A stretch of DNA of 64,000 bases. Origin: Amycolatopsis viridis (lineage in GTDB: Bacteria > Actinomycetota > Actinomycetes > Mycobacteriales > Pseudonocardiaceae). The stretch spans positions 2,976,001 to 3,040,000 of the forward strand of contig NZ_JAANOU010000001.1 of the NCBI RefSeq assembly GCF_011758765.1. Direction: 5' to 3'. The translations under genes were made by a program, and so were the position numbers. Positions within the stretch are counted from its first letter, which is position 1; each line of letters opens with the position of its first letter. This document shows positions 1,853 through 14,705 of this stretch, piece by piece. A model generated the notes under the pieces. It was not told the DNA's origin. It did not search any database and was given only the letters and a program-made list of their open reading frames with translations.

Positions 1853-1915
1853 CGCACTGTGACCGAGTTCGCGATGGATCGCCGGTGTCCCGGCACCATC
1901 GCTAGCTTCGTGGAC

Positions 1916-2908
1916 ATGACAACGATGGTGGCGGTGGTGCACGAAGGTGAGACGGGGCTGACGGGTGTCCGGGCGGCCGAGGTCCCGGCACCGGAGCCGG
2001 GAGCGGGGGAGGTGGTGGTCGCGGTGCGCGCCGCCGGGCTCAACCACCGCGACCTGTTCCTCGTCGGCGCCCGCGAACCCGGCGACGCGCGCGTGGTGCT
2101 GGGTTCCGACGGAGCCGGGGTGGTCGTCGCCGCGGGCCCAGGTGCGGCCGTCGCCCCCGGCACCGAGGTCGTCATCAACCCGTCGCTGGACTGGGAGGAG
2201 CCCGACGAGGTCCCGGACGTGCCGGCGATCCTCGGCGTGCCGACCGACGGCACGTTCGCCGAGTACGTCGTCGTGCCGGCGCGCAACGTGGCGCCGAAAC
2301 CGGCGCACCTGGACTGGGCCGAAGCGGCGGCTCTCCCGCTGGCCGCGCTGACGGCCTACCGGGCGCTGTTCACGCGCGGCGGGTTGCGTCCGGGCGCCCA
2401 CGTGCTGCTGCCTGGCATTGGCAGCGGAGTGGCCACCTTCGCCCTGGCGATGGCCAAGGCGGTGGGGGCCACGGTCACCGTCACCTCACGCAGCGCCGAG
2501 AAGTGCCGGCAGGCCCGGGAACTGGGGGCGGACCACGCGATCGGCAGCGCGGAGGACTGGACCAGTGCGGTGTCCGAGCCGGTGGATCTCGTCGTCGACA
2601 GCGTCGGTTCCGCCACGTTCGGCAAGTGCGTCTCGGTGCTGCGCCCGGGTGGACGGCTGGTGTCGCTCGGTGCGACGACGGGACCGGACGTGCAGCTGTC
2701 GTTGCGGGACATGTTCTTCCGGCAGATCAGCCTGCTGGGCACCTCGATGGGCAGTGCGCGGGGGTTCGAGCGGATGCTCGCCCTGGTGGCCGAGCACCGG
2801 ATCCGGCCGGTGGTCCACCGCACCTTCCCGCTGCCGGACGGTCCGCGTGCGCTTGCCGAACTGGCCAGGGGCGACCAGTTCGGCAAGCTGGTGCTGACCG
2901 TGGACTAG
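1916..2908 (+). CDS. Zinc-free MDR-family NADPH:quinone oxidoreductase-like protein
   Basis: This 330-residue protein follows the medium-chain dehydrogenase/reductase layout: a GroES-like N-terminal half (EVPAPEPGAGEVVV, then AAGLNHRD) and a Rossmann C-terminal half with the LLPGIGSGVATFALAMAKAVGA nucleotide-binding turn. No Cys cluster for structural zinc is present, which places it with the quinone-reductase/enoyl-reductase branch. It probably uses NAD(P)H to reduce an enone or quinone. The ATG at 1916 (MTTMVAVVHEG) was chosen because homology normally begins there; the frame stays open to 1859. Its TAG stop shares the CTAG at 2905-2908 with the convergent PLP enzyme. Confidence 0.8.
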   Translation: MTTMVAVVHEGETGLTGVRAAEVPAPEPGAGEVVVAVRAAGLNHRDLFLVGAREPGDARVVLGSDGAGVVVAAGPGAAVAPGTEVVINPSLDWEEPDEVPDVPAILGVPTDGTFAEYVVVPARNVAPKPAHLDWAEAAALPLAALTAYRALFTRGGLRPGAHVLLPGIGSGVATFALAMAKAVGATVTVTSRSAEKCRQARELGADHAIGSAEDWTSAVSEPVDLVVDSVGSATFGKCVSVLRPGGRLVSLGATTGPDVQLSLRDMFFRQISLLGTSMGSARGFERMLALVAEHRIRPVVHRTFPLPDGPRALAELARGDQFGKLVLTVD

Positions 2909-4011
2909 GACGAGCCGTGTCCGGTCGCGGCCGCGAGTGCGCGGACCGCGGCCGCGACGTCGGACTCGTCGTTGAAGTAGTGGAAACCGAACCGGACCCG
3001 GTCGCCGAGCGCAGTGGCGCGCACCCCGTGATCAGCCAGCGACCGCGCGATCCGGTTCGCGTTCGCGGTGGCCAGGACCACGATGTGCGAGCCCGGTCCA
3101 CCGAGGACCCGGCGCAGGCCGAGCGCCGCCGCCTCGCCGGTGAGGAGCCCGGCCAGGCCGAGCACGTGCCGCTCCACCCGGGCCGGATCCACGGCGTGGA
3201 ACAGGCGCAGCGCCGCGCCCGCACCGAGCCACGAGAACCAGGCCGGGGAGGCGTCGCACCGGGCGGCGTCCGGCGCCAGGTCGAGGGTCCCGCCGAAGTA
3301 GCCGTGCGGGGCGGCCGTCGACTTCCACCCCGGCGCCAGGGGCCGCAGGCCGGGTACCCGGTCCGGTCGCGTCACCAGCCACGCCGCGCCGCGCGGGCAC
3401 AGCAGCCACTTGTAACCGTGCACCGCGAGGTAGTCCGGGCGCACGGCGGCGAGGTCGAACCGCAGAGCCCCGAGCGACTGGGTCAGGTTGACGAACAGGC
3501 GGGCGCCGACCCGGTCGGTCGCGGCGCGCAGCGCAACGAGGTCGAGCCGCTGCCCTTCCCGGCTGGTCACCTCGCTCACCGCGAGCAGCACCACCTCGTC
3601 GTCCAGGGCCGCGATCAGGTCCTCGACCCGGGTGGCGCCGTCGTCCCGCGCCGGCACGCTCACCACGTCGTGCCCGGCCAGCCACGGAAAGCGGTTGCTG
3701 CGGAAGTCCTGCTCGGCCACCACGACCCGGCCCCGGGGCAGCGACGCGGCCACCGTCGCGGCAGCTTCGGCCAGCGACGACATCGTGGTGACCGTGCCCG
3801 CGGGCACGCCGACGAGGTCCGCGAACAGCTGCCGCGCCCGCGCCGCGGCCCCGTCCCAGTCGAGCCAGTCGAACGCGCCGGACGACCAGCCCTCCAGCGC
3901 CTCCCGCATCACGGTCACCACGGGCTCGGCTCCCGGCGGCGCTCCCGGGGTGTCCAGCCACACCTGCTCGCGCAGCGCCGGGAACAGGCCCCGGAACTCC
4001 TCCGGTGTCAT
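2905..4011 (-). CDS. Class V aminotransferase-fold PLP enzyme with unusual PLP pocket
   Basis: The 368-residue protein has the fold-type I, class V layout related to cysteine desulfurases, kynureninases and isopenicillin N epimerase. The PLP lysine is K201 in HGYKWLLCPRG. The residue that normally contacts the PLP ring nitrogen is Asp in a V-D-x-x-Q motif, but here it reads V-N-L-T-Q with N175. The enzyme might therefore be tuned to a racemase, lyase or elimination reaction rather than transamination, or be weakly active. It starts within the stop of the RidA-like gene (ATGA at 4008-4011), so it is the third gene of the minus-strand operon. The substrate is unknown. Confidence 0.75.
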   Translation of the reverse strand: MTPEEFRGLFPALREQVWLDTPGAPPGAEPVVTVMREALEGWSSGAFDWLDWDGAAARARQLFADLVGVPAGTVTTMSSLAEAAATVAASLPRGRVVVAEQDFRSNRFPWLAGHDVVSVPARDDGATRVEDLIAALDDEVVLLAVSEVTSREGQRLDLVALRAATDRVGARLFVNLTQSLGALRFDLAAVRPDYLAVHGYKWLLCPRGAAWLVTRPDRVPGLRPLAPGWKSTAAPHGYFGGTLDLAPDAARCDASPAWFSWLGAGAALRLFHAVDPARVERHVLGLAGLLTGEAAALGLRRVLGGPGSHIVVLATANANRIARSLADHGVRATALGDRVRFGFHYFNDESDVAAAVRALAAATGHGSS

Positions 4012-4415
4012 CGGGGCACCGCGGCCATCGCCTCGACCTCCACCAGGATGTCCGGCCTGGCCAGCGCGGCCGCCACGATCAGCGACTGGGCCGGCCAGTC
4101 ACCGCCGGGGAACCAGCGGGTGAAGGTCTGTTTCACCACCGAGCGGAAACCGGGCAGGTGCTCGGTGCCGGCCACCATGCTGAACACCTTCACCAGGTGC
4201 TGCGGTCCTGCACCGGCCTGCGCGAGCAGCTGCTCCAGGTTGGCGAACACAGCCTCGGTCTGGGCCGCGGCGTCCTCGCCCGCCAGCGTGCCGTCCGGCT
4301 GCGCGCCGACTTGCCCGGAGATCACCACGAGCTCGTGGCCGGCCGGCACCTGAGCCAGGTGGCTGTACATGCCGATGGGTGCGGCGACGGTGCCCGGGGT
4401 CCAGCGCCGGATCAT
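4008..4415 (-). CDS. RidA/YjgF-family protein lacking the catalytic arginine
   Basis: At 135 residues this is a standard single RidA domain (chorismate-mutase-like trimer). It has the family landmarks ISGQVG, a Q-x-x-x-v-F-x-N-L helix and the C-terminal LVEVEAMAAV strand. RidA proteins hydrolyse reactive 2-aminoacrylate-type enamines and imines formed by PLP enzymes, using an Arg in a P-A-R motif. Here that motif is P-A-Q (Q110), so classical imine hydrolase activity is doubtful and it may act on another substrate or as a ligand-binding partner. It overlaps PLP-enzyme genes by 4 bp on both sides (4412-4415 and 4008-4011), which ties it to their chemistry. Confidence 0.85.
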   Translation of the reverse strand: MIRRWTPGTVAAPIGMYSHLAQVPAGHELVVISGQVGAQPDGTLAGEDAAAQTEAVFANLEQLLAQAGAGPQHLVKVFSMVAGTEHLPGFRSVVKQTFTRWFPGGDWPAQSLIVAAALARPDILVEVEAMAAVPR

Positions 4416-5746
4416 GCGTTCTCCTCGGTGTGTTCGGCAGCGGTGTTCGCCGTGGTCACGGTGTTCACGGTGGTGAGGACGTCGCGCAGCACGGCGAGAG
4501 CTTCGTCCGCCTCGGCGACGGTGACGGTCATCGGCGGGGTGACGCGCAGGACGTTGCCGTGCAGGCCACCGCGCCCGATGAGCAGGCCGCGGTCCCGCGC
4601 GGCGTCGAGCACGCCGAGGGTGGCGGCGACGGCGGGCTCACGGGTGCCGGGTACGACGAGTTCCACCCCGATCATCAGCCCCATTCCGCGGACTTCGCCG
4701 ATCAGTGGGCAGTCTTCCGCGATCCGGCGCAGGCCCGCCATCAGGTGGTCGCCGACCTTGTCCGCGTTGGCCTGCAGGTCGTGCGAGAGCAAGTAATCGA
4801 GTGTGGCGACCCCGGCCGTTGTGGCCAGCGGGTTGCCGCCGGCGGTGGAGATCGAGTTCGCGCCAAGGCAGTCCATCAGCCCGGCCGGGGCGACGACTCC
4901 ACCGATCGCGATGCCGTTGCCGAGGCCCTTGGCGAAGGTGATGGCGTCGGGAGTGGCGCCGAACCCGGGCATGGCGAAGAACGACCGGCCGGTGCGTCCC
5001 CATCCGGACTGGACCTCATCGGAGATCAGCAGGATGCCGTAGTCGTCGAGCACGTCCTTCATGGCGGGGAAGAAGCCGTCGGGCGGGGTGGCGAACCCGC
5101 CCGCGCCCTGCACCGGTTCGGCGAGCAGGCAGGCCACGTCCCCGGCGGTCGAGGTCTCGATGATCGTGCGCAGCTCCTCCGCGCACGCCGCGACGAACCC
5201 GGCGTCGTCGAGGTGGCCGAAAGGGCTGCGGTAGCGGTAGCCGCTGTGCACGTAGGTGACGGCGAGCGGGCTGAGCGCGGTGGCCGACCAGCCGCGGATG
5301 CCGGTGGCGGCGACTGTGCCGAACGAGCGGCCGTGGTAGCTGCCGCGCAGGGCGAGGACCTGGTTGGACCGGCGGTGCTGGGTGGCCAGCAGCAGCGCCG
5401 TCTCGACGGCCTCGGTGCCGGAGTTGACGAAGAAGACCTTCGGATCGTCCAGGCCGGACAGCTTCGCGATCCGCTCGGCGAGTTCGACCTGGCTGCGGAT
5501 CAGGTAGAGCGTGGACGAGTGCAGCAGACGTCCCGCCTGCGCCTGGATCGCCTCGGTGATCTCCGGGATGTCGTGGCCGACCATGGTCGCCAGCAGGCCG
5601 CCGAAGAAGTCCAGGTACTCGCGGCCTTCGCCGTCGGTCACGCGCCGCCCCTCGCCGCGGACCAGTTCGATCGGCTCGTCGTAGTAGAGCTGCATCCAGG
5701 CGGGCATGACCCGCTGATGTCGTTGCCACAGCTCGGCGTGGGACAC
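4412..5746 (-). CDS. Class III aminotransferase (PLP, omega-amino acid type)
   Basis: The 444-residue product is a full-length class III (fold-type I) aminotransferase. It shows the phosphate-binding NSGTEAVETALLLA stretch (109-122), the GSYHGRSFG aromatic-stacking loop (135-143), the PLP aspartate in ISDEVQSGWGR (D243) and the Schiff-base lysine in FAKGLGNG (K273). It resembles 4-aminobutyrate and alanine-glyoxylate (AGXT2-type) transaminases, so an omega- or beta-amino acid or amine donor is likely. The GTG at 5746 follows GAGGAGGAACC, a strong ribosome binding site; the frame upstream lacks homology. It is the first gene of the operon and is divergent from the M20 hydrolase gene 170 bp away. 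Confidence 0.85.
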   Translation of the reverse strand: MSHAELWQRHQRVMPAWMQLYYDEPIELVRGEGRRVTDGEGREYLDFFGGLLATMVGHDIPEITEAIQAQAGRLLHSSTLYLIRSQVELAERIAKLSGLDDPKVFFVNSGTEAVETALLLATQHRRSNQVLALRGSYHGRSFGTVAATGIRGWSATALSPLAVTYVHSGYRYRSPFGHLDDAGFVAACAEELRTIIETSTAGDVACLLAEPVQGAGGFATPPDGFFPAMKDVLDDYGILLISDEVQSGWGRTGRSFFAMPGFGATPDAITFAKGLGNGIAIGGVVAPAGLMDCLGANSISTAGGNPLATTAGVATLDYLLSHDLQANADKVGDHLMAGLRRIAEDCPLIGEVRGMGLMIGVELVVPGTREPAVAATLGVLDAARDRGLLIGRGGLHGNVLRVTPPMTVTVAEADEALAVLRDVLTTVNTVTTANTAAEHTEENA

Positions 5747-5916
5747 GGTTCCTCCTCGGGAGACGGGGACGCCTGCGCACGCTAGGTCGGGGCGCGGACC
5801 GATCCCACCGGCCCCACGGCCGAATTTCAGATAGTCCAAAAACGGGTTCAGTCTGATGCAATGGTCGCGGCCGAAGCCGCAGAGTGTCGGACCAGCCGAC
5901 GAACAGGAGGTGACCA

Positions 5917-7164
5917 ATGCCGCGACCGACCGACGCGCAGGTACTGGCCCGGGTCGACGCCGTGGCCGAGGACATGCTGTCGTTCCTCGCCGCCACCGTC
6001 CGCGAGCCCAGCGAGAGCGGGTGGGAGGACCGGGTGACCGGCCGGTACGCCGACTGGTTCGCCGCGCGTGGCTGGCCGCTGGTGCGGCAGCCCCTCGAGC
6101 CCACCGGGCTCGCCGCCGGCGAGCCGCGGCCGGCGGACCGGGAGAACCTGATCGTCTGGTACCCGCGGCGCCGCGGGCTGCCGTGCCTGGTCCTCAACGG
6201 GCACGTCGACGTGGTGCCGGCCGGTGACGAGCAGGCGTGGTCGCGCCCGCCGCACTCCGGGGCCAGGGCCGGCGGCAAGGTGCACGGACGCGGTTCGGTC
6301 GACATGAAGGGCGGCATCGCGGCCGGGCTGTACGCGCTGGCCGCGCTCGAAGACCTCCGCGCGGACCTGCCGTTCGACGTCGCGGTGCAGCTCGTCGTGG
6401 CCGAGGAAACCACCGGGGTGGGCACACGGGCCGCCGCGCTCGAGGTGCCGGACCCGGCGGCCGCGCTGGTGCTGGAGCCGACCGGCGGCGCGATCGTGCC
6501 GATCAGCACCGGCCTGTTGTTCTTCACCGTCGACGTCACCGGCGTCGCGGCGCACACCTCCGCCCCGTGGCGCGGGGTGGACGCGTTCGACAAACTGATC
6601 CGCGTGCGCGAGGCGCTGGCCGAGCTGGCCCGCAAACGCGGCGCGGCCTACCGGCACCCGCTGTTCGCCGACGTGCCCACCGCGATCCCCTTCGCGATCG
6701 GTACCGCCCGGGCGGGCAGCTGGCGCGCCGCGGTGCCCGACCACGCGACGATGTCCGGCCGGATCGGGCTCGTCCCGGGGGAGGCCCCGGCCGAGCTGCG
6801 GCAGGAGGTCGAGCGGGTGCTCGCCGAGGTCGCCGCCACCGACGACTGGCTGCGGGACCACCCGCCCGCCGTGCGCTGGGACCACGAGGGCCTGCCCGGC
6901 TGGGAGACGCCCACCGACCACGAGCTGGTCGCCGCGCTGCGGTCGGCGCAACGGGCCGCCACGGGGGAGGAGACCCTGACCGGCTTCACGGCCGGCTCCG
7001 ACGCCGCCTTCTTCGGAGCGCGGGGGGTGCCGACTGCGATCTTCGGTCCGGGTGACGTCACGCTGGCGCACGCGCCGGACGAGTGCGTCGCCGAGGCGGA
7101 CGTCGTGCGGGCGGCGAAGGTGCTCGCGCTGGCGCTGACCAGGATGGTGGTGCGCGGTGGGTGA
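5917..7164 (+). CDS. M20-family zinc amidohydrolase/peptidase
   Basis: This 415-residue enzyme carries the M20 (ArgE/DapE/CPG2) di-metal site: GHVD at 95-98, D129 in GRGSVDMKGG, and the catalytic pair E163-E164 in VVAEETTGVG. A lid/dimerisation domain sits in the middle (about 200-310). It should hydrolyse an amide bond in an N-acyl amino acid, dipeptide or related compound in the cytoplasm. A good AGGAGGTG site precedes the ATG. It heads the plus-strand operon and ends inside the start of the IclR gene (7157-7164 overlap). Its position suggests that it performs the first, deacylating step of the local pathway. Confidence 0.85.
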   Translation: MPRPTDAQVLARVDAVAEDMLSFLAATVREPSESGWEDRVTGRYADWFAARGWPLVRQPLEPTGLAAGEPRPADRENLIVWYPRRRGLPCLVLNGHVDVVPAGDEQAWSRPPHSGARAGGKVHGRGSVDMKGGIAAGLYALAALEDLRADLPFDVAVQLVVAEETTGVGTRAAALEVPDPAAALVLEPTGGAIVPISTGLLFFTVDVTGVAAHTSAPWRGVDAFDKLIRVREALAELARKRGAAYRHPLFADVPTAIPFAIGTARAGSWRAAVPDHATMSGRIGLVPGEAPAELRQEVERVLAEVAATDDWLRDHPPAVRWDHEGLPGWETPTDHELVAALRSAQRAATGEETLTGFTAGSDAAFFGARGVPTAIFGPGDVTLAHAPDECVAEADVVRAAKVLALALTRMVVRGG

Positions 7165-7972
7165 GCAGCGCACCACGGTCCTGCACACGCTGGAGCGCGG
7201 GCTCCAGGTGCTGGAGGCGGTCGCCGCGGCCGACGGCGGCGCCACGGCGAAGGTGCTCGGGCGGCAGCTCGGCATCAAGATCGGCACCTGCTACCACCTG
7301 CTGCGGACGCTGGTCGCGAGCGGCCACGTGATCCGGCTGCCCGGCGGCTACTACGACGTCGGCCCGAAGGCCGCCTCGCTGAGCAGGCACCTGCAGCGGC
7401 GCTCCGGGCCCTCGCCCGAGCTCGCGGTCGTCCTGACCCGGTTGCACAACAAGACACGCGAGACGTCCTACATCTCGGGCTGGAACCACGGGACGCTGAT
7501 CCTGCAGCACTACCTCGCCGGCCTGCACACCTTGTCGGTCGGCAACCTCGACGTCGGCTACACCGGCCACCTGCACGCGCGCGCGTCGTGCAAGGCCGTG
7601 CTGGCGTTCCTGCCGGAGGAGCAGGTCGCGGCGATGTTCGACGGCGTTCCGCTGGAGGCCGTCACGCCCTCCACCATCACCGACTTCGACGCGCTGACCG
7701 TGGACCTGGCCACGACCCGCAGACGTGGCTACGCCCTGGACCTCGAGGAGTTCAGCGCTGGCGTCTGTTGCGTGTCGGCGCCGTTCTTCGACGAGCACGG
7801 CACGCCGGCCGGGGCGTTCACGGTGTCCGTGCCGCAGCCGCGCTTCGTCGAGCGCCGGTCGTGGCTGATCGCGGAGGTGCGGGAGGCCGCGGCGATGGCG
7901 ACCGGGTTGCTGCGCACCGGCCGGCTCACCGTGCCCTCGCCGGAGCCGCGGACGAACCGGGAGGTGTCATGA
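7157..7972 (+). CDS. IclR-family transcriptional regulator
   Basis: The 271-residue protein begins with an IclR winged helix-turn-helix (about 1-70, KVLGRQLGIKIGTCYHLLRT). It continues with the GAF-like effector domain, including the landmarks GHLHARASCKAVLAF and the DLEEFSAGVCCVSAPF stretch that forms the ligand pocket. IclR proteins usually control aromatic or short-chain acid catabolism and respond to a pathway intermediate. Its start (GTG) lies within the M20 gene and its stop overlaps the SDR start, so it is co-transcribed with the operon it probably regulates. The divergent region 5747-5916 is its likely target. Confidence 0.85.
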   Translation: MGEQRTTVLHTLERGLQVLEAVAAADGGATAKVLGRQLGIKIGTCYHLLRTLVASGHVIRLPGGYYDVGPKAASLSRHLQRRSGPSPELAVVLTRLHNKTRETSYISGWNHGTLILQHYLAGLHTLSVGNLDVGYTGHLHARASCKAVLAFLPEEQVAAMFDGVPLEAVTPSTITDFDALTVDLATTRRRGYALDLEEFSAGVCCVSAPFFDEHGTPAGAFTVSVPQPRFVERRSWLIAEVREAAAMATGLLRTGRLTVPSPEPRTNREVS

Positions 7973-8757
7973 GGACCCTGGAGCGGGCGCGGGCGGTGGT
8001 CACCGGAGCGGGCCGCGGGATCGGGCGTTCGATCGCGGTGCGGCTCGCCGCTGCGGGCGCATCGGTCGCCGTCGTGGACACCAACCCCGGAACCGACAGC
8101 AGCGACAGCACCGACAGCGCTGGCGGGGCGGTCGCGGGACCGGTGGTTCCGGAGATCGCCGCTCACGGCGTGGACGCCATGGCCCTGCGGTGCGACGTCA
8201 CCGATCCCGGGGCGGTCGAGGCCGCGGTGGGTGCGGTGATCGCCGCCTGGGGCGGGGTGGACGTGCTGGTCTGCAACGCCGGTGGCGGCACCGGTCCCAT
8301 CCACGGCAACCGGGCGTCCGAAGTGGAGCTCGCCGAGCTGGAGAAGGTGCTGCGGCTGAACCTGTTCGGCACCGTCCACTGCTGCCGCGCGGTCGCCGGG
8401 CCGATGCGGCGGCAGCGGCACGGCAGCATCGTGACGATGAGCTCGGTCAACGGGCTGGCGGCCACCGCGGACGGCGGTTACGCGCACTACGGCGTCGCCA
8501 AGGCCGCGGTCGTGCAGTACACCCGCTACCTGGCGCGCGACCTCGGGCCGCACGGCATCCGCGTCAACGCGGTCGCCCCGGGACCGATCCGCACGGCCCG
8601 CCTGCAGGCCCGGTACGCCGAGGCGGGCGAAGACCTCGCTGGCGCCGGTGAACCCGATGACGTCGCCGCCGTCGTGGAATTCCTGGCCGGGCCCGGCGCC
8701 CGGCACGTCAGCGGACAGGTCGTCACCGTCGACGGCGGCCTGCCCCACTACGCCTGA
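7969..8757 (+). CDS. Short-chain dehydrogenase/reductase
   Basis: This is a classical SDR of 262 residues with TGAGRGIG (12-19) for NAD(P) binding, NAG at 103-105, the active-site serine in TMSSVNG (158-159) and Y174-x3-K178. It most likely oxidises or reduces a secondary alcohol/ketone in the catabolic pathway. A Ser/Asp/Gly-rich stretch, DTNPGTDSSDSTDSAGG (37-53), extends the loop after the second beta strand. The acidic Asp at the end of that strand (VVDT) favours NAD over NADP. The ATG at 7969 overlaps the IclR stop by 4 bp. Confidence 0.88.
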   Translation: MRTLERARAVVTGAGRGIGRSIAVRLAAAGASVAVVDTNPGTDSSDSTDSAGGAVAGPVVPEIAAHGVDAMALRCDVTDPGAVEAAVGAVIAAWGGVDVLVCNAGGGTGPIHGNRASEVELAELEKVLRLNLFGTVHCCRAVAGPMRRQRHGSIVTMSSVNGLAATADGGYAHYGVAKAAVVQYTRYLARDLGPHGIRVNAVAPGPIRTARLQARYAEAGEDLAGAGEPDDVAAVVEFLAGPGARHVSGQVVTVDGGLPHYA

Positions 8758-8799
8758 ACCTCGATTTTCCCCTGTGCGAAAAGGAGAGTGGGTACCCCC

Positions 8800-9756
8800 A
8801 TGCCCGAAACAGCGGCACTGCTCGCCCATCTGGAGTCGATGCGGCGGATCCGGTCCTTCGAGGAGGAGGTGACCCGCCTGCGTGCGACCGGCGACATCGT
8901 CGGATCGGTCCACCTGTGCAACGGCCAGGAAGCGATCTACGTCGGCGCCTGCGCCGCGCTCGATCTCAGCCGCGACGCCGTGTTCCCCACCTACCGCGGT
9001 CACGGCTGGACGCTCGCCTGCGGAGCGCCGCCGCACGCGCTGTTCGCCGAGCTCCTCGGCCGCGCCACCGGGATCAACGGTGGCCGCGGCGGATCGGCCT
9101 ACCTCTCCGCGCCCGAGTACGGGATGTACGGGGAGAACTCGATCGTGGGTGCCGGCGCCCCGATCGCGGCGGGCGCCGCTCTGGCCGCCACCTTCGACGG
9201 ATCGGGCCGCGTGGCGCTCGCCGCGTTCGGGGACGGCGCGATGAACCAGGGCGCGGTGCACGAGGCGATGAACTTCGCCGCGGTCCGTGCGCTGCCCGTG
9301 ATCTTCCTCGTCGAGAACAACCACTACTCCGAACTCACCCCGATCGCCGACATGGTGCGCGTCGACCGGTTGTTCAAGCGGGCCTCCGCCTACGGGATGC
9401 CGGGCGCGCGCATCGACGGCAACGACCCGGAGGCGGTGCGCCAGGCCGTCGCGGAGGCCGTCCGCCGGGCTCGTTCCGGCGCGGGCCCGGTGCTGCTGGA
9501 GGCGATGACCCAGCGGATCGTCGGGCACTACATCGGCGACGCACAGCACTACCGGCCCTCCGGCGACCTGGACGCGGCGCTCGCCGCGGAACCGATCGGA
9601 CGGCTCGCCCGGGAGCTGCTCGGCCTCGGCGTCGCACAGTCCGAACTGGACGAACTCGAAGCGCGGGTGGCCCGCGAGATCGCCGATGCCTCCGCCCGCG
9701 CGCTGGCCGATCCCGTCGCCGACCCCACGACCGTTCTGGAGCACCTGTATGCCTGA
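8800..9756 (+). CDS. Thiamine-PP-dependent 2-oxo acid/acetoin dehydrogenase E1 alpha subunit
   Basis: The 318-residue protein holds the thiamine-diphosphate motif GDG (144-146) through ENN (172-174), with FGDGAMNQGAVHEAMNF between. It also has the E1 alpha landmark RGHGW near 66-70 and a GGRGGS phosphate loop. Paired with E1 beta, it decarboxylates a 2-oxo acid or cleaves an acetoin-like ketol to an enamine-ThDP intermediate. The ATG at 8800 was chosen over the GTG at 8788, which directly abuts the AAGGAGA box (8781-8787). No E2 lipoyl transferase or E3 gene follows, so the acyl acceptor must be encoded elsewhere or the reaction is non-oxidative. Confidence 0.85.
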   Translation: MPETAALLAHLESMRRIRSFEEEVTRLRATGDIVGSVHLCNGQEAIYVGACAALDLSRDAVFPTYRGHGWTLACGAPPHALFAELLGRATGINGGRGGSAYLSAPEYGMYGENSIVGAGAPIAAGAALAATFDGSGRVALAAFGDGAMNQGAVHEAMNFAAVRALPVIFLVENNHYSELTPIADMVRVDRLFKRASAYGMPGARIDGNDPEAVRQAVAEAVRRARSGAGPVLLEAMTQRIVGHYIGDAQHYRPSGDLDAALAAEPIGRLARELLGLGVAQSELDELEARVAREIADASARALADPVADPTTVLEHLYA

Positions 9757-10732
9757 GACGAAGAACCTGTCCTACGCCGAGTCGGTCAACGCGGCGCTGC
9801 GCCGCGCTCTCGCCGAACGCCCGGAGGCGCTGCTGTTCGGGGAGGACGTCGCCGCACCCGGCGGGGTGTTCGGCGTGACGAAGGGCCTGCGCAGGGAATT
9901 CGGCGACCGCGTGTTCGACACCCCGATCTCGGAATCGGCCATCCTCGGCGGCGCGGTCGGCGCCGCGATGTTCGGTCGCCGGCCGATCGCCGAGATCATG
10001 TGGGCCGACTTCTCCCTGGTCGCCCTGGACCAGCTCGTCAACCAGGCCGCCAACGTCCGCTACGTGTCCCGCGGGTCGCTGTCGGCGCCGCTGACCGTGC
10101 GCACCCAGCAGGGCAACGCGCCCGGGGCGTGCGCCCAGCACTCGCAGTCGCTGGAGGCGTTCTTCGCCCACGTGCCCGGGCTGCGGGTGTGCCTGCCCGC
10201 CACGCACCAGGACGCCTACGACCTGCTGCTGTCGGCGATCTGGTGCAACGACCCGGTGATCGTGATCGAGAACCGCACCCTGTACCACGCGGGCAAGCAG
10301 CAGGTCCAGCTCGGCGGGGACGTGCAGCCGGTGGGGGGTGCGGCGGTGCGGCGTCCGGGCCGCGACGTCACGGTGCTCACCTGGGGTGCGCTGCAGCACC
10401 GGGTGCTGGAGGCGGCCGGCCGGCTCGCCGGGGACGGGATCGAGGCCGAGGTGCTGGACGCCCGCTGGGTGCGCCCGCTCGACCTGGAGGCCGTGCTGGC
10501 AAGCGTGCGCCGCACCGGACGGCTGGTGGTCGCCCACGAAGCGCACACGGTCGGCGGGGTCGGTGGCGAGGTGCTCGCCGCCGTCGCCGAAGCCGGGCTG
10601 CCGCTGCGCTGCCCGCCGGTGCGGATCGGTGCGCCGGACACCCGCATCCCGGCCGCGCCGGGGCTCGCCGCGGCCGTCATCCCCTCCACCGAGGTGATCG
10701 CCGAGGCGATCACCAAGTCCGTCCGAGCCTAG
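9749..10732 (+). CDS. Thiamine-PP-dependent dehydrogenase E1 beta subunit
   Basis: This 327-residue partner of E1 alpha starts with ATG 8 bp inside the alpha gene and shows the E1 beta signatures: YAESVNAALR, LLFGEDVAAPGGVFGVTKGL, the DTPISESAILGGAVGAAM loop carrying the conserved glutamate that activates thiamine, and the AQHSQSLEAFFAHVPGL segment. The C-terminal transketolase domain includes TWGALQHRVLEAA and AHEAHTVGGVGGEV. Together the two subunits would form the usual alpha2beta2 E1. The short overlap implies translational coupling and one-to-one production. Confidence 0.85.
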   Translation: MPETKNLSYAESVNAALRRALAERPEALLFGEDVAAPGGVFGVTKGLRREFGDRVFDTPISESAILGGAVGAAMFGRRPIAEIMWADFSLVALDQLVNQAANVRYVSRGSLSAPLTVRTQQGNAPGACAQHSQSLEAFFAHVPGLRVCLPATHQDAYDLLLSAIWCNDPVIVIENRTLYHAGKQQVQLGGDVQPVGGAAVRRPGRDVTVLTWGALQHRVLEAAGRLAGDGIEAEVLDARWVRPLDLEAVLASVRRTGRLVVAHEAHTVGGVGGEVLAAVAEAGLPLRCPPVRIGAPDTRIPAAPGLAAAVIPSTEVIAEAITKSVRA

Positions 10733-10740
10733 GAGGATCC

Positions 10741-11547
10741 GTGACCGAACCCGTCGTCGCGATGCCCCCGTTCGCGCCGCTGTACGGCGTGGGCACCGAG
10801 ACCGTGCAGCTGCGCTGGCTCACCGTCGAGTACCGCACCGACCCGGAGGTGCTGGCACGGCTGCTGCCCGCTCCGCTGGCGCCGGCGCCGGATCCGCTCG
10901 TCGCCATCTGGGTGGCCGAGTTCCTCGGGGCCGGGTTCCACCTGCCCGACGGCACCGTCGAACAGCGGCCGCCGTACCTGCAGGCCGGGATCAGCGTGCA
11001 GTGCCGCCGCCAGGACGAGGTGGGCGCCTATCCGCTCACCTTCTTCATCGAGGGCCTCAACCACGGCACTCTCGGGCGGGAGATCTTCGGGCTGCCCAAG
11101 AAACAGGCCCGCGCGGTCACCCTCACCGAGGACGGTGACGAGGTGACCGGCCGTATCGTCACCGCCAACGACATCGAGATCGTCACCGTGCGGGCCCGGG
11201 CCGCCACGCCCGGCGCCGCGCTCGACCCGATCCCGGAGTGGTTCGGCCACCACTTCGCGCTGAAGCTGATCCCGAGCGCGGAGGGCACCGGCTACGACAT
11301 CAGCAGGCTGGTGCGCATCCCGTTCCGCACCTCCCGGCCGACCGGTGGGTGGGACGGCACAGCGGAGGTGACCGTGCGGCCGTCCGCCGCCGATCCCGTC
11401 CACCTGCTGCCGTGCCTCGAGGTCACCTCCGCCCGCTATGGCGGGATCCGCCTCGACATCGGTTTCGGCACCTATCTCGACCACGTCGACCACGTCCCCG
11501 TCGCGGGGACACCGGACTGGGGCAGCGTCGCCCCGTCAGGAAGGTGA
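10741..11547 (+). CDS. Acetoacetate decarboxylase (ADC)-superfamily enzyme
   Basis: The 268-residue protein contains GREIFGLPKKQA at about 112-123. By comparison with clostridial ADC, K120 would form the Schiff base and K121 would lower its pKa. An AGGAGG box lies 3 bp upstream of the GTG at 10741. Family members either decarboxylate beta-keto acids or, in the aldolase-dehydratase branch, condense pyruvate with aldehydes through the same lysine. It could act on a beta-keto acid made by the SDR, or supply or consume the E1 substrate. The exact reaction cannot be read from sequence. Confidence 0.8.
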   Translation: MTEPVVAMPPFAPLYGVGTETVQLRWLTVEYRTDPEVLARLLPAPLAPAPDPLVAIWVAEFLGAGFHLPDGTVEQRPPYLQAGISVQCRRQDEVGAYPLTFFIEGLNHGTLGREIFGLPKKQARAVTLTEDGDEVTGRIVTANDIEIVTVRARAATPGAALDPIPEWFGHHFALKLIPSAEGTGYDISRLVRIPFRTSRPTGGWDGTAEVTVRPSAADPVHLLPCLEVTSARYGGIRLDIGFGTYLDHVDHVPVAGTPDWGSVAPSGR

Positions 11548-11552
11548 ACACC

Positions 11553-12857
11553 ATGACCGTCCAGACCCAGCCGGCCACCGGCGCCCGGCACCGCATCACC
11601 TCGGTGCAGCGCAAGTCGATCGTGGCCGCCTGCATCGGCAACTTCATCGAGTGGTACGAGTTCGTCCTCTACGGGTACTTCGCGTCGACGATCGCGAAGC
11701 TGTTCTTCCCGGCCGGGGACCCGACGGCCGCGTTGCTGCTGACGTTCGCGCTCTTCGGGGTGAGTTTCGTGGTGCGACCGCTCGGCGGGGTGGTGTTCGG
11801 CTACATCGGCGACCGGCACGGCAGGCGCGCCGCGCTGTCGGCGATCATCCTGCTGATCTCGCTGGGCACCGCGCTGATGGCGCTCGTGCCGTCGTACGCG
11901 TCGATCGGTGTCGCCGCGCCGGTGCTCATCCTGGTGCTGCGGCTGGCGCAGGGCGTGTCGGCGGGCGGTGAGTGGACCGGTGCCGTGGCGTACGTGATCG
12001 AGACGGCACCGGCCGGCAGGCGGGCGTACTACGGCAGCTGGCAAACGATCACGATCGTGCTCGGCATGATGGTGGCGAGCCTGTCCGCGCTGCTGTTCAG
12101 CGAGGTGCTCCCGCCGGCCGCGCTGGAGTCGTGGGGCTGGCGGATCCCGTTCGTGGTCGCGCTGCCGCTGGGCCTGATCGGGCTGTACATGCGGTTGCGG
12201 CTGGACGAGACGCCCGAGTTCGCCCGGGTGGCCGCCACGGAGGGGCACGAACGGGCTCCGCTGCGCTCGACGCTGCGGCACGACTGGCGGTCGATCCTGC
12301 GCGTGGCCGGGCTGGTGTGCTCGCCGACCATGTGCACCTACGTGCTGCTGGTGTACGGCCCCACCTTCCTGGTGACCGAGCTGTCGGTGCCGCCGGCGCG
12401 GGCGAAGCTCGCCGGGTTCGGCGCGATGGTGGTCATGATGGTGCTGACCGTGGTGTTCGCCCGGGTGTGCGACCGGGTGGGGCGCAAGCCGTTCCTGATC
12501 GCCGGGGCCATCTGGGTGCTGGTGACCGCGCCGCTCGGGTTCCTGTTGCTGCACCGGTTGTCCTTCGGGTTCCTGGTGGGCGGTCTCGCCCTGGTGGTGA
12601 TCGGCGAGGCGATGATGCTGGCGCCGCAGCCGGCGATCTTCGCCGAGCTGTTCCCGACCGCCCGCCGGTACAGCGGGGTCGGCATCGGCTACAACATCGG
12701 CGTGGTGCTCTTCGGCGGCGCCGGGCCGCTGGTGGCCACCGCCGTCGTGGAGGCCACGCGAAGCACCTACGCACCCGCGGGTTACCTGATGTGCGGCGCG
12801 CTGATCAGCCTGGTCGCCGCGTTCGTCACCCCGGAGACCCTGCGCGCCCGCTCCTGA
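11553..12857 (+). CDS. MHS-family (metabolite:H+ symporter) MFS permease
   Basis: The 434-residue protein has about 12 hydrophobic segments. The MHS signature is present: NFIEWYEFVLYGYFAS at the first helix, GYIGDRHGRR in loop 2-3, and the second-half counterpart RVCDRVGRKP. These permeases import organic acids, betaines and aromatic acids with protons. As the last gene of the plus-strand operon (5 bp after the ADC-like gene, AGGAAGGTG as ribosome binding site), it probably takes up the pathway substrate. A strong hairpin follows at 12867. Confidence 0.88.
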   Translation: MTVQTQPATGARHRITSVQRKSIVAACIGNFIEWYEFVLYGYFASTIAKLFFPAGDPTAALLLTFALFGVSFVVRPLGGVVFGYIGDRHGRRAALSAIILLISLGTALMALVPSYASIGVAAPVLILVLRLAQGVSAGGEWTGAVAYVIETAPAGRRAYYGSWQTITIVLGMMVASLSALLFSEVLPPAALESWGWRIPFVVALPLGLIGLYMRLRLDETPEFARVAATEGHERAPLRSTLRHDWRSILRVAGLVCSPTMCTYVLLVYGPTFLVTELSVPPARAKLAGFGAMVVMMVLTVVFARVCDRVGRKPFLIAGAIWVLVTAPLGFLLLHRLSFGFLVGGLALVVIGEAMMLAPQPAIFAELFPTARRYSGVGIGYNIGVVLFGGAGPLVATAVVEATRSTYAPAGYLMCGALISLVAAFVTPETLRARS

Positions 12858-13005: not shown

Positions 13006-13548
13006 TCAACGAGTGGTTCTGACGTACCGATTCGACGACAACTCGAACACCCGCACTCGCCGGCCGCCGGTGGGATTGACGGTCTCGCCGACCGGATGCA
13101 TCCCCAGTTTGGTCGTGATCCGTTCGGAGGCGTCGTTGCCCACTTGGATGATGCTGACGATCCGCTCCAGCCCTCGCTCTTCGAACCCGAACCGTGCAGC
13201 GGCCGCAGCGGCCTCGGTGGCCAAGCCCTGCCCCCAGTGCGACCGTCCCAGCCGCCAACCGATCTCGACCGCCGGCAGTACCTCCGGCAAGTAGGCGGGC
13301 ACCGAAAGGCCGGTGAACCCGGCCAGCTCGCCGGTGGACCTGATCTCCACGGCGAACAGGCCGAAGCCCTGTGACTCCCATTCGCTCTCCCACGCCAGGA
13401 TCCCGTCGCGAGTTTGCTTCTCGTCACGGACACTGCCGTCGCGGATCCACCGCATGACCTCGGGATCGGCATTGACGGCAGCCATGGGCGCAACGTCTTC
13501 CTCGCGCCAGCGACGCAGGATCAACCGGGGAGTCTCCAGCGTGACCAT
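13006..13548 (-). CDS. GNAT-family (RimJ/RimL-type) N-acetyltransferase
   Basis: The 180-residue protein begins with the RimJ/RimL-like LETPRLILRRWREEDVAPM. It has a V-E-I-G-W-R-L strand followed by the acetyl-CoA-binding motif SHWGQGLATEAAAAAARFGFEE and the N-D-A-S-E-R...KLGM segment. It transfers acetyl from acetyl-CoA to an amine; the acceptor is unknown, with ribosomal or small-molecule amines both possible. The ATG at 13548 gives the canonical family start; an upstream extension to 13590 lacks homology. It stands alone. Confidence 0.8.
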   Translation of the reverse strand: MVTLETPRLILRRWREEDVAPMAAVNADPEVMRWIRDGSVRDEKQTRDGILAWESEWESQGFGLFAVEIRSTGELAGFTGLSVPAYLPEVLPAVEIGWRLGRSHWGQGLATEAAAAAARFGFEERGLERIVSIIQVGNDASERITTKLGMHPVGETVNPTGGRRVRVFELSSNRYVRTTR

Positions 13549-13587
13549 CCGATCATTCTGGATGACAACGGGCTCCCTGCCATCCTG

Positions 13588-13613
13588 CACTTGGCACCTT
13601 CACTTGGCACCTT
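13588..13613. repeat. Two perfect tandem 13-mers
   Basis: CACTTGGCACCTT occurs twice in direct succession (13588-13600 and 13601-13613), upstream of the acetyltransferase gene. TTGGCAC spaced by 13 bp could be a regulatory direct repeat or a replication-slippage product. Confidence 0.5.
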
Positions 13614-13751: not shown

Positions 13752-14705
13752 TCAGGGCAGCAGGATGACTTTGCCGAACTTGCCCGGGCCGGCCAGGCGG
13801 GCGTAGGCGTCAGCGAACTGGTCGAGTGGGAAGGCCGCGTCGATGGGTACCCGCAACCTCCCCTGCGCCAGCAAGGGCACCACGGACGTCCGGACGGTGT
13901 CGGCGAGGAGCGCCTTCTCGGCGTGTGAGCGCCCGCGGATGGTGGTGCCGATCAGCTGGGCGCGCGCGAGCATGAGATCGAACATTCGCAGCGGCGCCGT
14001 GGTGCCGGCCTGGACCCCGACGACGAGGACCTTGCCCCGGCTGCGGAGCAAGGCGACCCGCTGCAGGCAGTCCTGTCCGCCGACCAGTTCCACGATCACG
14101 TCGTACGGTGCGTGCGCGGTTTCCTGGTCGGGGGTTACGACGTCGATCCGGCCATCCGGGGCGAGTGCCTTCACGCGGTCATGGAGTTCGGGCCGGCGCA
14201 CGCTGGCCACGGTGTGCGCGCCGGAGACCGCGGAGACCTGCACCATGGCCGTGCCCACCCCGCCCGCCGCGCCGCTGACCAGCACCCGGTCGCCGGCGCG
14301 GATCCCGGCCTGGGTGACCAGGGCGTCCCAGGCGGTGCTGAACGCCTCCGGGAAACCGGCGGCCTCCTGCCAGGGCAAACCGTCCGGCACCGGCAGCAGA
14401 AGATCGGCGGGGATGGCGATCCGCTCGGCGTGGCCGCCACCCCCGACCAGTGCCATCACCCGGTCTCCCGGTACGACCCCCGTGACCCCGGATCCGACCT
14501 GCTCGACCTCGCCGGCGACCTCCAGGCCGGGCACGTCGGCCGGCCACCCCGGTGGCGCCGGGTAGTCCCCCCGTGCCTGCTGCAGGTCAGCGGCGTTGAG
14601 TCCAGCGGCCCGCACCCGGACGACCACGGCCCCCGGTCCAGCGACCGGCTCTGGACGCTGCTCCAGCTGGAAGGTCTGTCGGGAATTGATCACTACGGTT
14701 CGCAT
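13752..14705 (-). CDS. NADPH:quinone oxidoreductase-like MDR protein
   Basis: At 317 residues this matches the PIG3/quinone-reductase branch of the MDR superfamily. Landmarks are an N-terminal GroES-like domain with VRVRAAGLNAADLQQARGDYP, the substrate-side LPWQEAAGFPEAFSTAWDAL segment and the cofactor turn SGAAGGVGTAMVQ. It lacks zinc ligands, so it probably reduces quinones or alpha,beta-unsaturated carbonyls with NADPH. No regulator gene is attached. It is one of four MDR paralogues in the window (others near 1916, 42673 and 51377). The region upstream of its start carries the MHS relic. Confidence 0.85.
   Translation of the reverse strand: MRTVVINSRQTFQLEQRPEPVAGPGAVVVRVRAAGLNAADLQQARGDYPAPPGWPADVPGLEVAGEVEQVGSGVTGVVPGDRVMALVGGGGHAERIAIPADLLLPVPDGLPWQEAAGFPEAFSTAWDALVTQAGIRAGDRVLVSGAAGGVGTAMVQVSAVSGAHTVASVRRPELHDRVKALAPDGRIDVVTPDQETAHAPYDVIVELVGGQDCLQRVALLRSRGKVLVVGVQAGTTAPLRMFDLMLARAQLIGTTIRGRSHAEKALLADTVRTSVVPLLAQGRLRVPIDAAFPLDQFADAYARLAGPGKFGKVILLP

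Follow-up and report, generated by a model that had tools for sequence, protein, structure and literature searches.

Which compound would a compact divergent gene cluster of Amycolatopsis viridis serve, and do its genes belong to one pathway? The stretch analyzed, called the window here, is 64 kb long and corresponds to bases 2976001-3040000 of the 5.68 Mb single-contig genome of this organism; positions are those of the window unless a locus is named. Genes were called from open reading frames (ORFs) and from Pfam and NCBIfam family scans of the window. The cluster combines, on the minus strand, a class III aminotransferase (AT3), a RidA/YjgF-type (Rid-fold) protein, and a class V pyridoxal phosphate enzyme (PLP5) and, on the plus strand, an M20 amidohydrolase, an IclR-family regulator, an SDR oxidoreductase, the alpha and beta subunits of a thiamine diphosphate (ThDP) E1 enzyme, a protein of the acetoacetate decarboxylase (ADC) fold, and an MHS-family permease. 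An earlier reading made from the letters alone (the sequence-only reading) had placed these genes in two tightly packed operons diverging from 5747-5916; the arrangement was borne out by the ORFs and family scans, and every gene it named is present where it had been located. The gene set is a real conserved module. It was interpreted, tentatively and at somewhat short of an even chance, as a catabolic module of patchy distribution and under IclR control, whose substrate would be an amide-linked beta-amino acid (or a short omega-amino acid) exceeding beta-alanine in size.

Conservation and gene content of the module

A genome scan was performed using an alignment of the ADC-fold protein built from the window, a Mycolicibacterium neoaurum locus (L020), and three plasmids. 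One genome per species was searched (84,980 species), and 24 loci were returned, whose gene content was read within 10-kb flanks; three pairs of loci share a contig, namely L042/L020 of Mycolicibacterium neoaurum, L025/L050, and L033/L159. M20, IclR, E1 alpha, E1 beta, RidA, and PLP5 were all present in 19 of the 24 loci, and these 19 also carried AT3 (16/19), MHS (17/19), an MDR dehydrogenase (11/19), and SDR (9/19). A twentieth module, in Microbacterium psychrotolerans (L033/L159), was recovered after flank extension and comprises AT3, M20, IclR, MDR, E1 alpha, E1 beta, and ADC; no PLP5, RidA, or MHS was found in the stretches fetched for it. Several module genes are split in L032. The remaining four loci (L036, L037, L038, and L040) hold ADC and a distant MHS protein (34-36%), with no E1 or AT3. 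An amidohydrolase of another M20 subfamily, M20D, lies nearby in L036 and L040, and an AsnC-family regulator precedes ADC in L038, with look-alikes recognized by eye in L036 and L040. Lack of conservation, set beforehand as a test of the sequence-only reading, is thus excluded by a module found in 20 of the 24 ADC-seeded loci and in several actinobacterial families; chance clustering was rejected on the same count.

Among plasmids, the ADC-fold protein matched 20 records, of which the four at 44-50% identity were examined and the other 16 (27-31%) were left out. All four carry the module: Rhodococcus jostii RHA1 pRHL1, Rhodococcus sp. JS3073, Streptomyces sp. NBC_00046, and Microbacterium sp. 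NIBRBAC000506063. AT3 of the Streptomyces plasmid lies in two frames, and the Microbacterium module is degraded, with several genes split and neither PLP5 nor MHS found in it. Among named genomes, those of Amycolatopsis come closest in the ADC gene, at 87% identity. Within the genus, 4 of 19 genomes have a close E1 alpha (E <= 1e-120), and within the order, 3 of 298 have a close ADC (E <= 1e-60), the genome studied being included in both counts; 17 of the 298 match ADC at E <= 1e-10. This patchy spread looks like that of a transferable accessory pathway.

The idea of one conserved, catabolic-looking module stood, and the gene list of the sequence-only reading proved incomplete, for it had omitted an MDR ('zinc-binding') dehydrogenase at 1859-2908 (plus strand), outside the coordinates that it covered. 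This protein has no C-x2-C motif and, judged by gene neighborhoods, belongs to the module. One of the 11 MDR genes in the scan modules is about 3.5 kb past MHS, and all four plasmid modules have MDR, split in one. Two genomes without a nearby copy encode a close orthologue on another contig (85% and 74%); in the L030 genome, where MDR is likewise not nearby, the best match elsewhere is 38%.

In the window, gene junctions are overlaps of 4-8 bp, except for a 30-bp gap between SDR and E1 alpha and the 170-bp divergent gap. For ADC, GTG at 10741 is the likelier start (AGGAGG ahead, 8 bp past E1 beta), and TTG at 10729 is the alternative.

Operator-like box and probable regulation

The divergent promoter region (5747-5916), which is the 170-bp gap between AT3 and M20, contains a conserved operator-like box, AATTTCAGATAGTCCAAA, at 5823-5840 (plus strand). 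The consensus of this element is AATTTCAGATAGTCGAAA, an imperfect palindrome of the form TTTC-N8-GAAA in which the right half reads CAAA in the window. The box was present in 20 of 20 AT3|M20 gaps examined, several of these gaps being near-copies. Sixteen of the gaps served to train a matrix; the sites independent of training are those of L020, L024, L030, L044, and L159 and the second sites of L022, L034, and L035. When the 64-kb window was scanned, a single site of at least 10 bits was obtained, at 5823 (35 bits), and five shuffled windows of unchanged single-base make-up gave one chance match overall (10.7 bits). The whole genome holds one exact match to the pattern, which is the window box, and one match with a single mismatch.

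In rearranged loci the box moves with the genes. M20 and ADC form a divergent pair with two outward-facing copies in L020 and L024, and a copy lies upstream of a separate MHS operon in L034; the box was also matched in L030, L044, and L159, outside the training set. The unlinked MDR dehydrogenase of A. tucumanensis is preceded by a weak site (15.4 bits), and a matrix search found no box ahead of that of Actinomadura roseirufa. The IclR-family protein encoded at 7157-7972 (plus strand; PF01614, PF09339) is the predicted ligand of the box at 5823-5840, and the module is probably one self-regulated IclR regulon. Weaker matches were also seen at 262 and 9929 (minus strand) in an E1 cluster of Rhodococcus USK10 (L100), at 18.6 and 13.5 bits, one of them near E1 alpha; these are perhaps a related IclR site.

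Putative amide hydrolysis, transport, and transamination

The M20 protein (5917-7164, plus strand) is ArgE/DapE-like, scoring 231.3 bits to TIGR01910 against a cut-off of 217.6. By short patterns, its metal-ligand motifs are kept as HxD in 23 of 24 relatives (the exception is a fragment) and as D-x-K and EE..G in 24 of 24; HxPxE is found in 15 of 24, and five listed exceptions end in H-x3-E. The permease (11544-12857, plus strand) is of the MHS carboxylate/H+ symport type, with 378.5 bits to TIGR00883, which is under the cut-off of 443.45. Some relatives have extended clusters. In Mycolicibacterium neoaurum (L020), MHS is kept and is joined by a sugar-type ABC system, a pair of SnoaL-like proteins, and a PF01425 amidase. 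The Microbacterium plasmid has no MHS match and is annotated with a similar ABC, SnoaL-like, and amidase set, including a sugar-type ABC system with a substrate-binding protein. For Hoyosella, an arrangement with SnoaL-like and amidase-like genes was read from ORFs only. An L-piperidine-6-carboxylate dehydrogenase in L046 was set aside as probably an unrelated neighbor. The SDR oxidoreductase (7969-8757, plus strand; PF13561) is accessory.

AT3 (4412-5746, minus strand; PF00202) most likely starts at GTG 5746, with a GAGGAGG ribosome-binding site ahead, and retains the class III motifs SDE[V/I]Q (21/21) and FAKG (15/21; the remaining 6 have LAKG). Across the phylum, 85 of 396 genomes encode a close homologue (E <= 1e-120). 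Thirty non-module AT3 loci were inspected using the nitrilase and hydantoinase genes of the A. viridis genome as probes, these having been named through their homologues in L051 (dihydropyrimidinase above the cut-off and N-carbamoylputrescine amidase under it, so that beta-ureidopropionase is a presumed identity). Within the stretches fetched, eleven loci had both a beta-ureidopropionase-like nitrilase and a dihydropyrimidinase, and one had a dihydropyrimidinase alone; neither probe gave a match in the window or in any of the 26 module loci, which lie on 25 distinct contigs. The AT3 paralogue of the same genome (64% identical; G000:C1:4176432-4177709, L090) lies 4-6 kb from the nitrilase and dihydropyrimidinase genes, in a region that is probably a reductive pyrimidine pathway.

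A tree and a residue comparison were made without L024 and L032, the module rows under 90% coverage. The module AT3s form one clade on a long stem with support of 100/100. All 20 module rows have Ala at residue 302, and all 11 pyrimidine-linked rows have Phe; because, in an alignment with GABA aminotransferase, this residue neighbors the position that we take to be the phosphate-binding Thr297, the AT3 pocket is probably larger. At the EPVQGEGG motif, AT3 has Ala in place of the Glu of wild-type GABA aminotransferase, presumably E211, which we associate with 2-oxoglutarate use. AT3 has an alanine dehydrogenase as its neighbor in Hoyosella (556 bits to TIGR00518), and one is annotated beside AT3 on the Microbacterium plasmid. 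Taken together, the kinship and gene contexts of AT3, the Phe302Ala change, the Glu-to-Ala change, and the alanine dehydrogenase neighbors point to pyruvate as the amino acceptor of AT3 and to a beta- or omega-amino acid of greater bulk than beta-alanine as the donor. The three modules without AT3 (L030, L044, and L049) belong to genomes with an AT3 homologue elsewhere (56-57%) that could substitute.

Rid-fold, ADC-fold, and PLP5 enzymes

Two steps of the sequence-only reading were not upheld, and the usual annotations of the proteins concerned are probably wrong here. In the Rid-fold protein (4008-4415, minus strand; PF01042), for which imine or enamine handling would be the usual role, a pattern search found PA[Q/H][S/T] in 23 of 23 relatives, with PAQ in the window, and PAR in none of the 23, so the catalytic Arg is missing throughout. 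At the RidA Arg position of a 19-row alignment there are 16 His and 3 Gln, the window being among the latter; of the solved structures compared, 2csl, which we take to be T. thermophilus RidA, has Arg, and the best-scoring relative, 5v4f, has Asn. An ordinary RidA deaminase was rejected on this substitution. According to the excerpted text of Niehaus et al. (2015, PMC4433059), the Arg is essential for imine hydrolysis by RidA, about 10% of RidA proteins have Ser there, and the Rid4-7 subfamilies without it appear not to hydrolyze imines and are of unknown function.

The second such protein (10741-11547, plus strand; PF06314) is a putative Schiff-base enzyme whose AlphaFold model (pLDDT 81) has the ADC fold; Foldseek aligned it to 3bgt with TM scores of 0.71/0.79 and also matched an aldolase-dehydratase and MppR. 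Its Lys-Lys pair, K124/K125, is kept as GLPKKQ in 24 of 25 sequences, the exception being a fragment. YxQxG, found in 25 of 25, places Gln where the solved ADC entries 3bgt, 3c8w, and 3bh2 have Glu. The Arg column of ADC holds Leu or Val in these proteins, but an invariant Arg follows one residue later; we assume that the Glu and Arg concerned are the catalytic E76 and R29 of ADC. Plain beta-keto-acid decarboxylation by this protein is not supported, with Gln at the Glu position in all 25, and a true acetoacetate decarboxylase was rejected since the active-site Glu is replaced, although the Schiff-base Lys is kept. Searches of PDB sequences gave no close relative of known substrate.

PLP5 (2905-4011, minus strand; PF00266) is nearest to cysteine desulfurases by fold and to desulfurases and L-cysteine/cystine lyase by profile. 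Its Schiff-base Lys is conserved as HGYKW in 22 of 23 sequences, the exception again being a fragment. No Cys is present in the region matching the Cys loop of CsdA, whose Cys is presumably catalytic, and a cysteine desulfurase identity was rejected for this lack. Distant PLP5 homologues have mixed gene contexts. On a plasmid of Rhodococcus erythropolis R138 (L088), an annotated M20, class V PLP, and RidA trio at 4781-7800 lies near an MFS transporter; it is possibly a simpler related pathway.

An E1 enzyme without an E2 gene

E1 alpha (8788-9756, plus strand; PF00676) and E1 beta (9749-10732, plus strand; PF02779/PF02780) retain the ThDP motif, as GDGxxN in 18 of 25 and GEGAMN in the remaining 7. 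G-x-G-A-x-N and GHYIGD of E1 alpha are invariant in the 16 aligned sequences, and GHxxxD is present in 25 of 25. The HSQ of E1 beta is found in 22 of 25; L029 carries HAQ instead, and the region looks disrupted in L032 and L050. No E2 was detected by tblastn with the E2s of the A. viridis genome in the 26 module loci or the window, bar one weak match in L034 (17810-17950, minus strand) of 47 residues at 42.6%, beyond the Hoyosella module genes. Six probes were used, some of them in the wrong frame; those from L101 and L103 were correct and, in a control, recovered the other E2 loci except L105. A pyruvate dehydrogenase (PDH) or branched-chain keto-acid dehydrogenase (BCKDH) operon was rejected for want of an E2.

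The same genome has E1-E2 sets elsewhere, and the module E1 alpha is 31-46% identical to six other E1s of this genome with which it was compared. The nearest non-module E1s in the plasmid search (E1 alpha 50-59%, E1 beta 52-65%) belong to actinobacterial clusters with dehydrogenases, in which no E2 was noted, no E2 query having been used there. Non-module E1 alpha/beta clusters of actinobacterial plasmids (L100, L053, L054, and L055; three fused) occur with SDR, Gfo/Idh, or other oxidoreductases and no noted E2. This E1 type may be a free-standing C-C cleaving enzyme, or it may borrow E2/E3.

Proposed pathway

In the preferred model, MHS would import the compound, and M20, together with the PF01425 amidase in some relatives, would cut the amide. 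AT3 would pass the amino group to pyruvate, yielding a 3-oxo acid or semialdehyde and alanine. The ADC-fold enzyme could form a lysine Schiff base with the AT3 product or with another keto intermediate and act as an aldolase, dehydratase, or cyclase or in an unusual decarboxylation; the Rid-fold protein would be linked to this step in a role other than imine hydrolysis. MDR and SDR enzymes would set the alcohol/ketone state, and E1 alpha/beta would carry out a thiamine-dependent C-C cleavage, with a borrowed E2/E3 or with product release without one. The target of PLP5 may be a C-X bond or a second amino group. Of the route given by the sequence-only reading, uptake, amide hydrolysis, and transamination of a beta- or omega-amino acid are retained, as supported by AT3 kinship and contexts, the alanine dehydrogenases, and the M20 motifs; the RidA and ADC steps are the parts that fell. 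Also counted for the model are the ABC system in place of MHS in the Microbacterium plasmid and the M20D amidohydrolase near ADC and MHS in L036 and L040.

Distance correlations were computed over 14 rows, without a significance test. ADC, MHS, and RidA correlate mutually at 0.65-0.79, and M20, IclR, E1 alpha, and E1 beta at 0.58-0.83. PLP5 goes mainly with the latter group (0.52-0.72), and AT3 falls in between. Because of these correlations and the loci having ADC and MHS without E1 or AT3, it is suggested that the importer, ADC, and Rid proteins handle one part of the substrate.

Several observations weigh against a single pathway for a bulky beta-amino acid. ADC, MHS, and RidA correlate at only 0.03-0.32 with M20, IclR, and E1, so the module may be two sub-pathways. 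AT3 is absent from 3 and MHS from 2 of the 19 module loci, and both Microbacterium modules lack PLP5, RidA, and MHS, apart from a 41-residue RidA match. Neither pyrimidine gene accompanies 18 of the 30 non-module AT3 loci, many of them on short contigs, and the branching of the module AT3 clade relative to the pyrimidine-linked rows is weakly supported. The specificities of AT3 and M20 are read from kinship, and the substrate, the point of action of E1, and its use of a foreign E2 are putative.

Alternative explanations

That weak correlation between the blocks would fit a case in which two separate pathways, {M20, IclR, E1 alpha/beta, PLP5} and {ADC, MHS, RidA}, shared one regulator with AT3 between them, and the occurrence of ADC and MHS without E1 or AT3 in 4 of 24 loci points the same way. 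We consider this rather improbable: both blocks stand in one operon in the window, boxes are common to both in rearranged loci, and AT3 and PLP5 correlate with both (0.33-0.72 and 0.35-0.64). An unlikely, somewhat better candidate is a mercapturate-like, S- or X-substituted N-acylated alpha-amino acid, which M20 would deacylate and PLP5 would cleave as a beta-lyase to 2-aminoacrylate, the other enzymes degrading the leaving group. The kinship of PLP5 with cysteine desulfurases (profile and fold) and L-cysteine/cystine lyase (profile) without the desulfurase Cys, the adjacency of PLP5 and RidA genes in 19 scan modules, and the annotated trio on the Rhodococcus erythropolis plasmid agree with such a substrate; the Rid protein, however, is without the Arg for imine hydrolysis, no obvious sulfur-handling gene was seen in the module, and the beta-alanine-type aminotransferase is left unexplained.

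A small natural-product or osmolyte cluster with the MHS protein as exporter would accord with the patchy distribution and with the ADC-fold enzyme MppR, which acts in a natural-product pathway in the excerpted text of PMC10367076. It is very unlikely given IclR control, a hydrolase as the first operon gene, a permease of importer type whose place is apparently taken elsewhere by an ABC system having a substrate-binding protein, and no assembly-line or ligase gene seen in the module. Least probable of all is pantothenate or a relative, for which we assume a route of amide hydrolysis to beta-alanine and pantoate, with AT3 acting on beta-alanine, the dehydrogenases and an ADC-fold aldolase on pantoate/ketopantoate, and E1 on 2-oxoisovalerate. 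Such a route would draw together the kinship of AT3 with pyrimidine-linked aminotransferases, an importer of carboxylate type, and the relation of E1 alpha/beta to 2-oxo-acid dehydrogenases; it offers no explanation for PLP5, the Rid protein, or the SnoaL-like proteins seen in relatives, and the Phe-to-Ala change suggests that the substrate has more bulk than beta-alanine. Routes involving thiamine, ectoine, vitamin B6, ergothioneine, mycothiol conjugates, beta-lactams, and phosphonates were provisionally set aside, as their key genes seemed to be missing or they fitted badly.

Comparison with known systems

Narrow term searches of the open-access literature returned no described pathway that matches gene for gene, as the sequence-only reading had supposed, and the module is apparently undescribed. 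Actinobacterial reductive pyrimidine (beta-alanine) degradation uses the same class III aminotransferase subfamily, with amide hydrolysis before transamination; the module differs in having no dihydropyrimidinase or nitrilase match and a separate AT3 clade with Phe302Ala, and it adds E1, ADC, PLP5, Rid, IclR, and MHS. Acetoin and 2-oxo-acid dehydrogenase systems with a BDH-like oxidoreductase likewise place an E1 alpha/beta heterodimer beside MDR/SDR dehydrogenases, but the module has no E2 gene. With ADC, the S. bingchenggensis aldolase-dehydratase, and MppR, the module protein shares the fold and the adjacent Lys-Lys pair; it differs in having Gln for Glu, and identity is 15-27% in 24 matches at E <= 0.001. 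The Rid protein is of the same fold family as RidA/YjgF imine deaminases and adjoins a PLP enzyme, whereas its Arg position is His or Gln in every aligned copy; in lacking the Arg it resembles Rid4-7 as described in PMC4433059. The E1 clusters of Rhodococcus USK10 and WB1 and of Streptomyces chartreusis, which hold the nearest non-module E1s of the plasmid search (50-65%), include SDR or other dehydrogenases and, in two of them, IclR as in the module (that of USK10 by eye); they differ in their transporters and dehydrogenases, E1 is fused in two, and no AT3, M20, or ADC was noted.

It is possible, though doubtful, that the module represents a new route for degrading a bulky, amide-linked beta-amino acid. 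Its ADC-fold and Rid-fold proteins, which co-vary with the importer, would then have acquired new chemistry, other than beta-keto-acid decarboxylation and imine hydrolysis, and would feed an E1 alpha/beta that cleaves C-C bonds without an E2 of its own. Knowing what the module does would assign roles to an orphan E1, a Rid protein lacking the Arg, and an ADC-fold enzyme of Gln type. As this compact, probably self-regulated, transferable pathway is present in the sequenced strain R. jostii RHA1 (pRHL1), its substrate could be accessible via induction and deletion.

Outside the cluster, the window flanks were read by eye from translations. A MarR-like regulator (259-711) and a phosphotransferase-like protein (727-1701) lie on one side, and a GNAT-like acetyltransferase (13006-13590) and a quinone-oxidoreductase-like protein (13752-14705) on the other.

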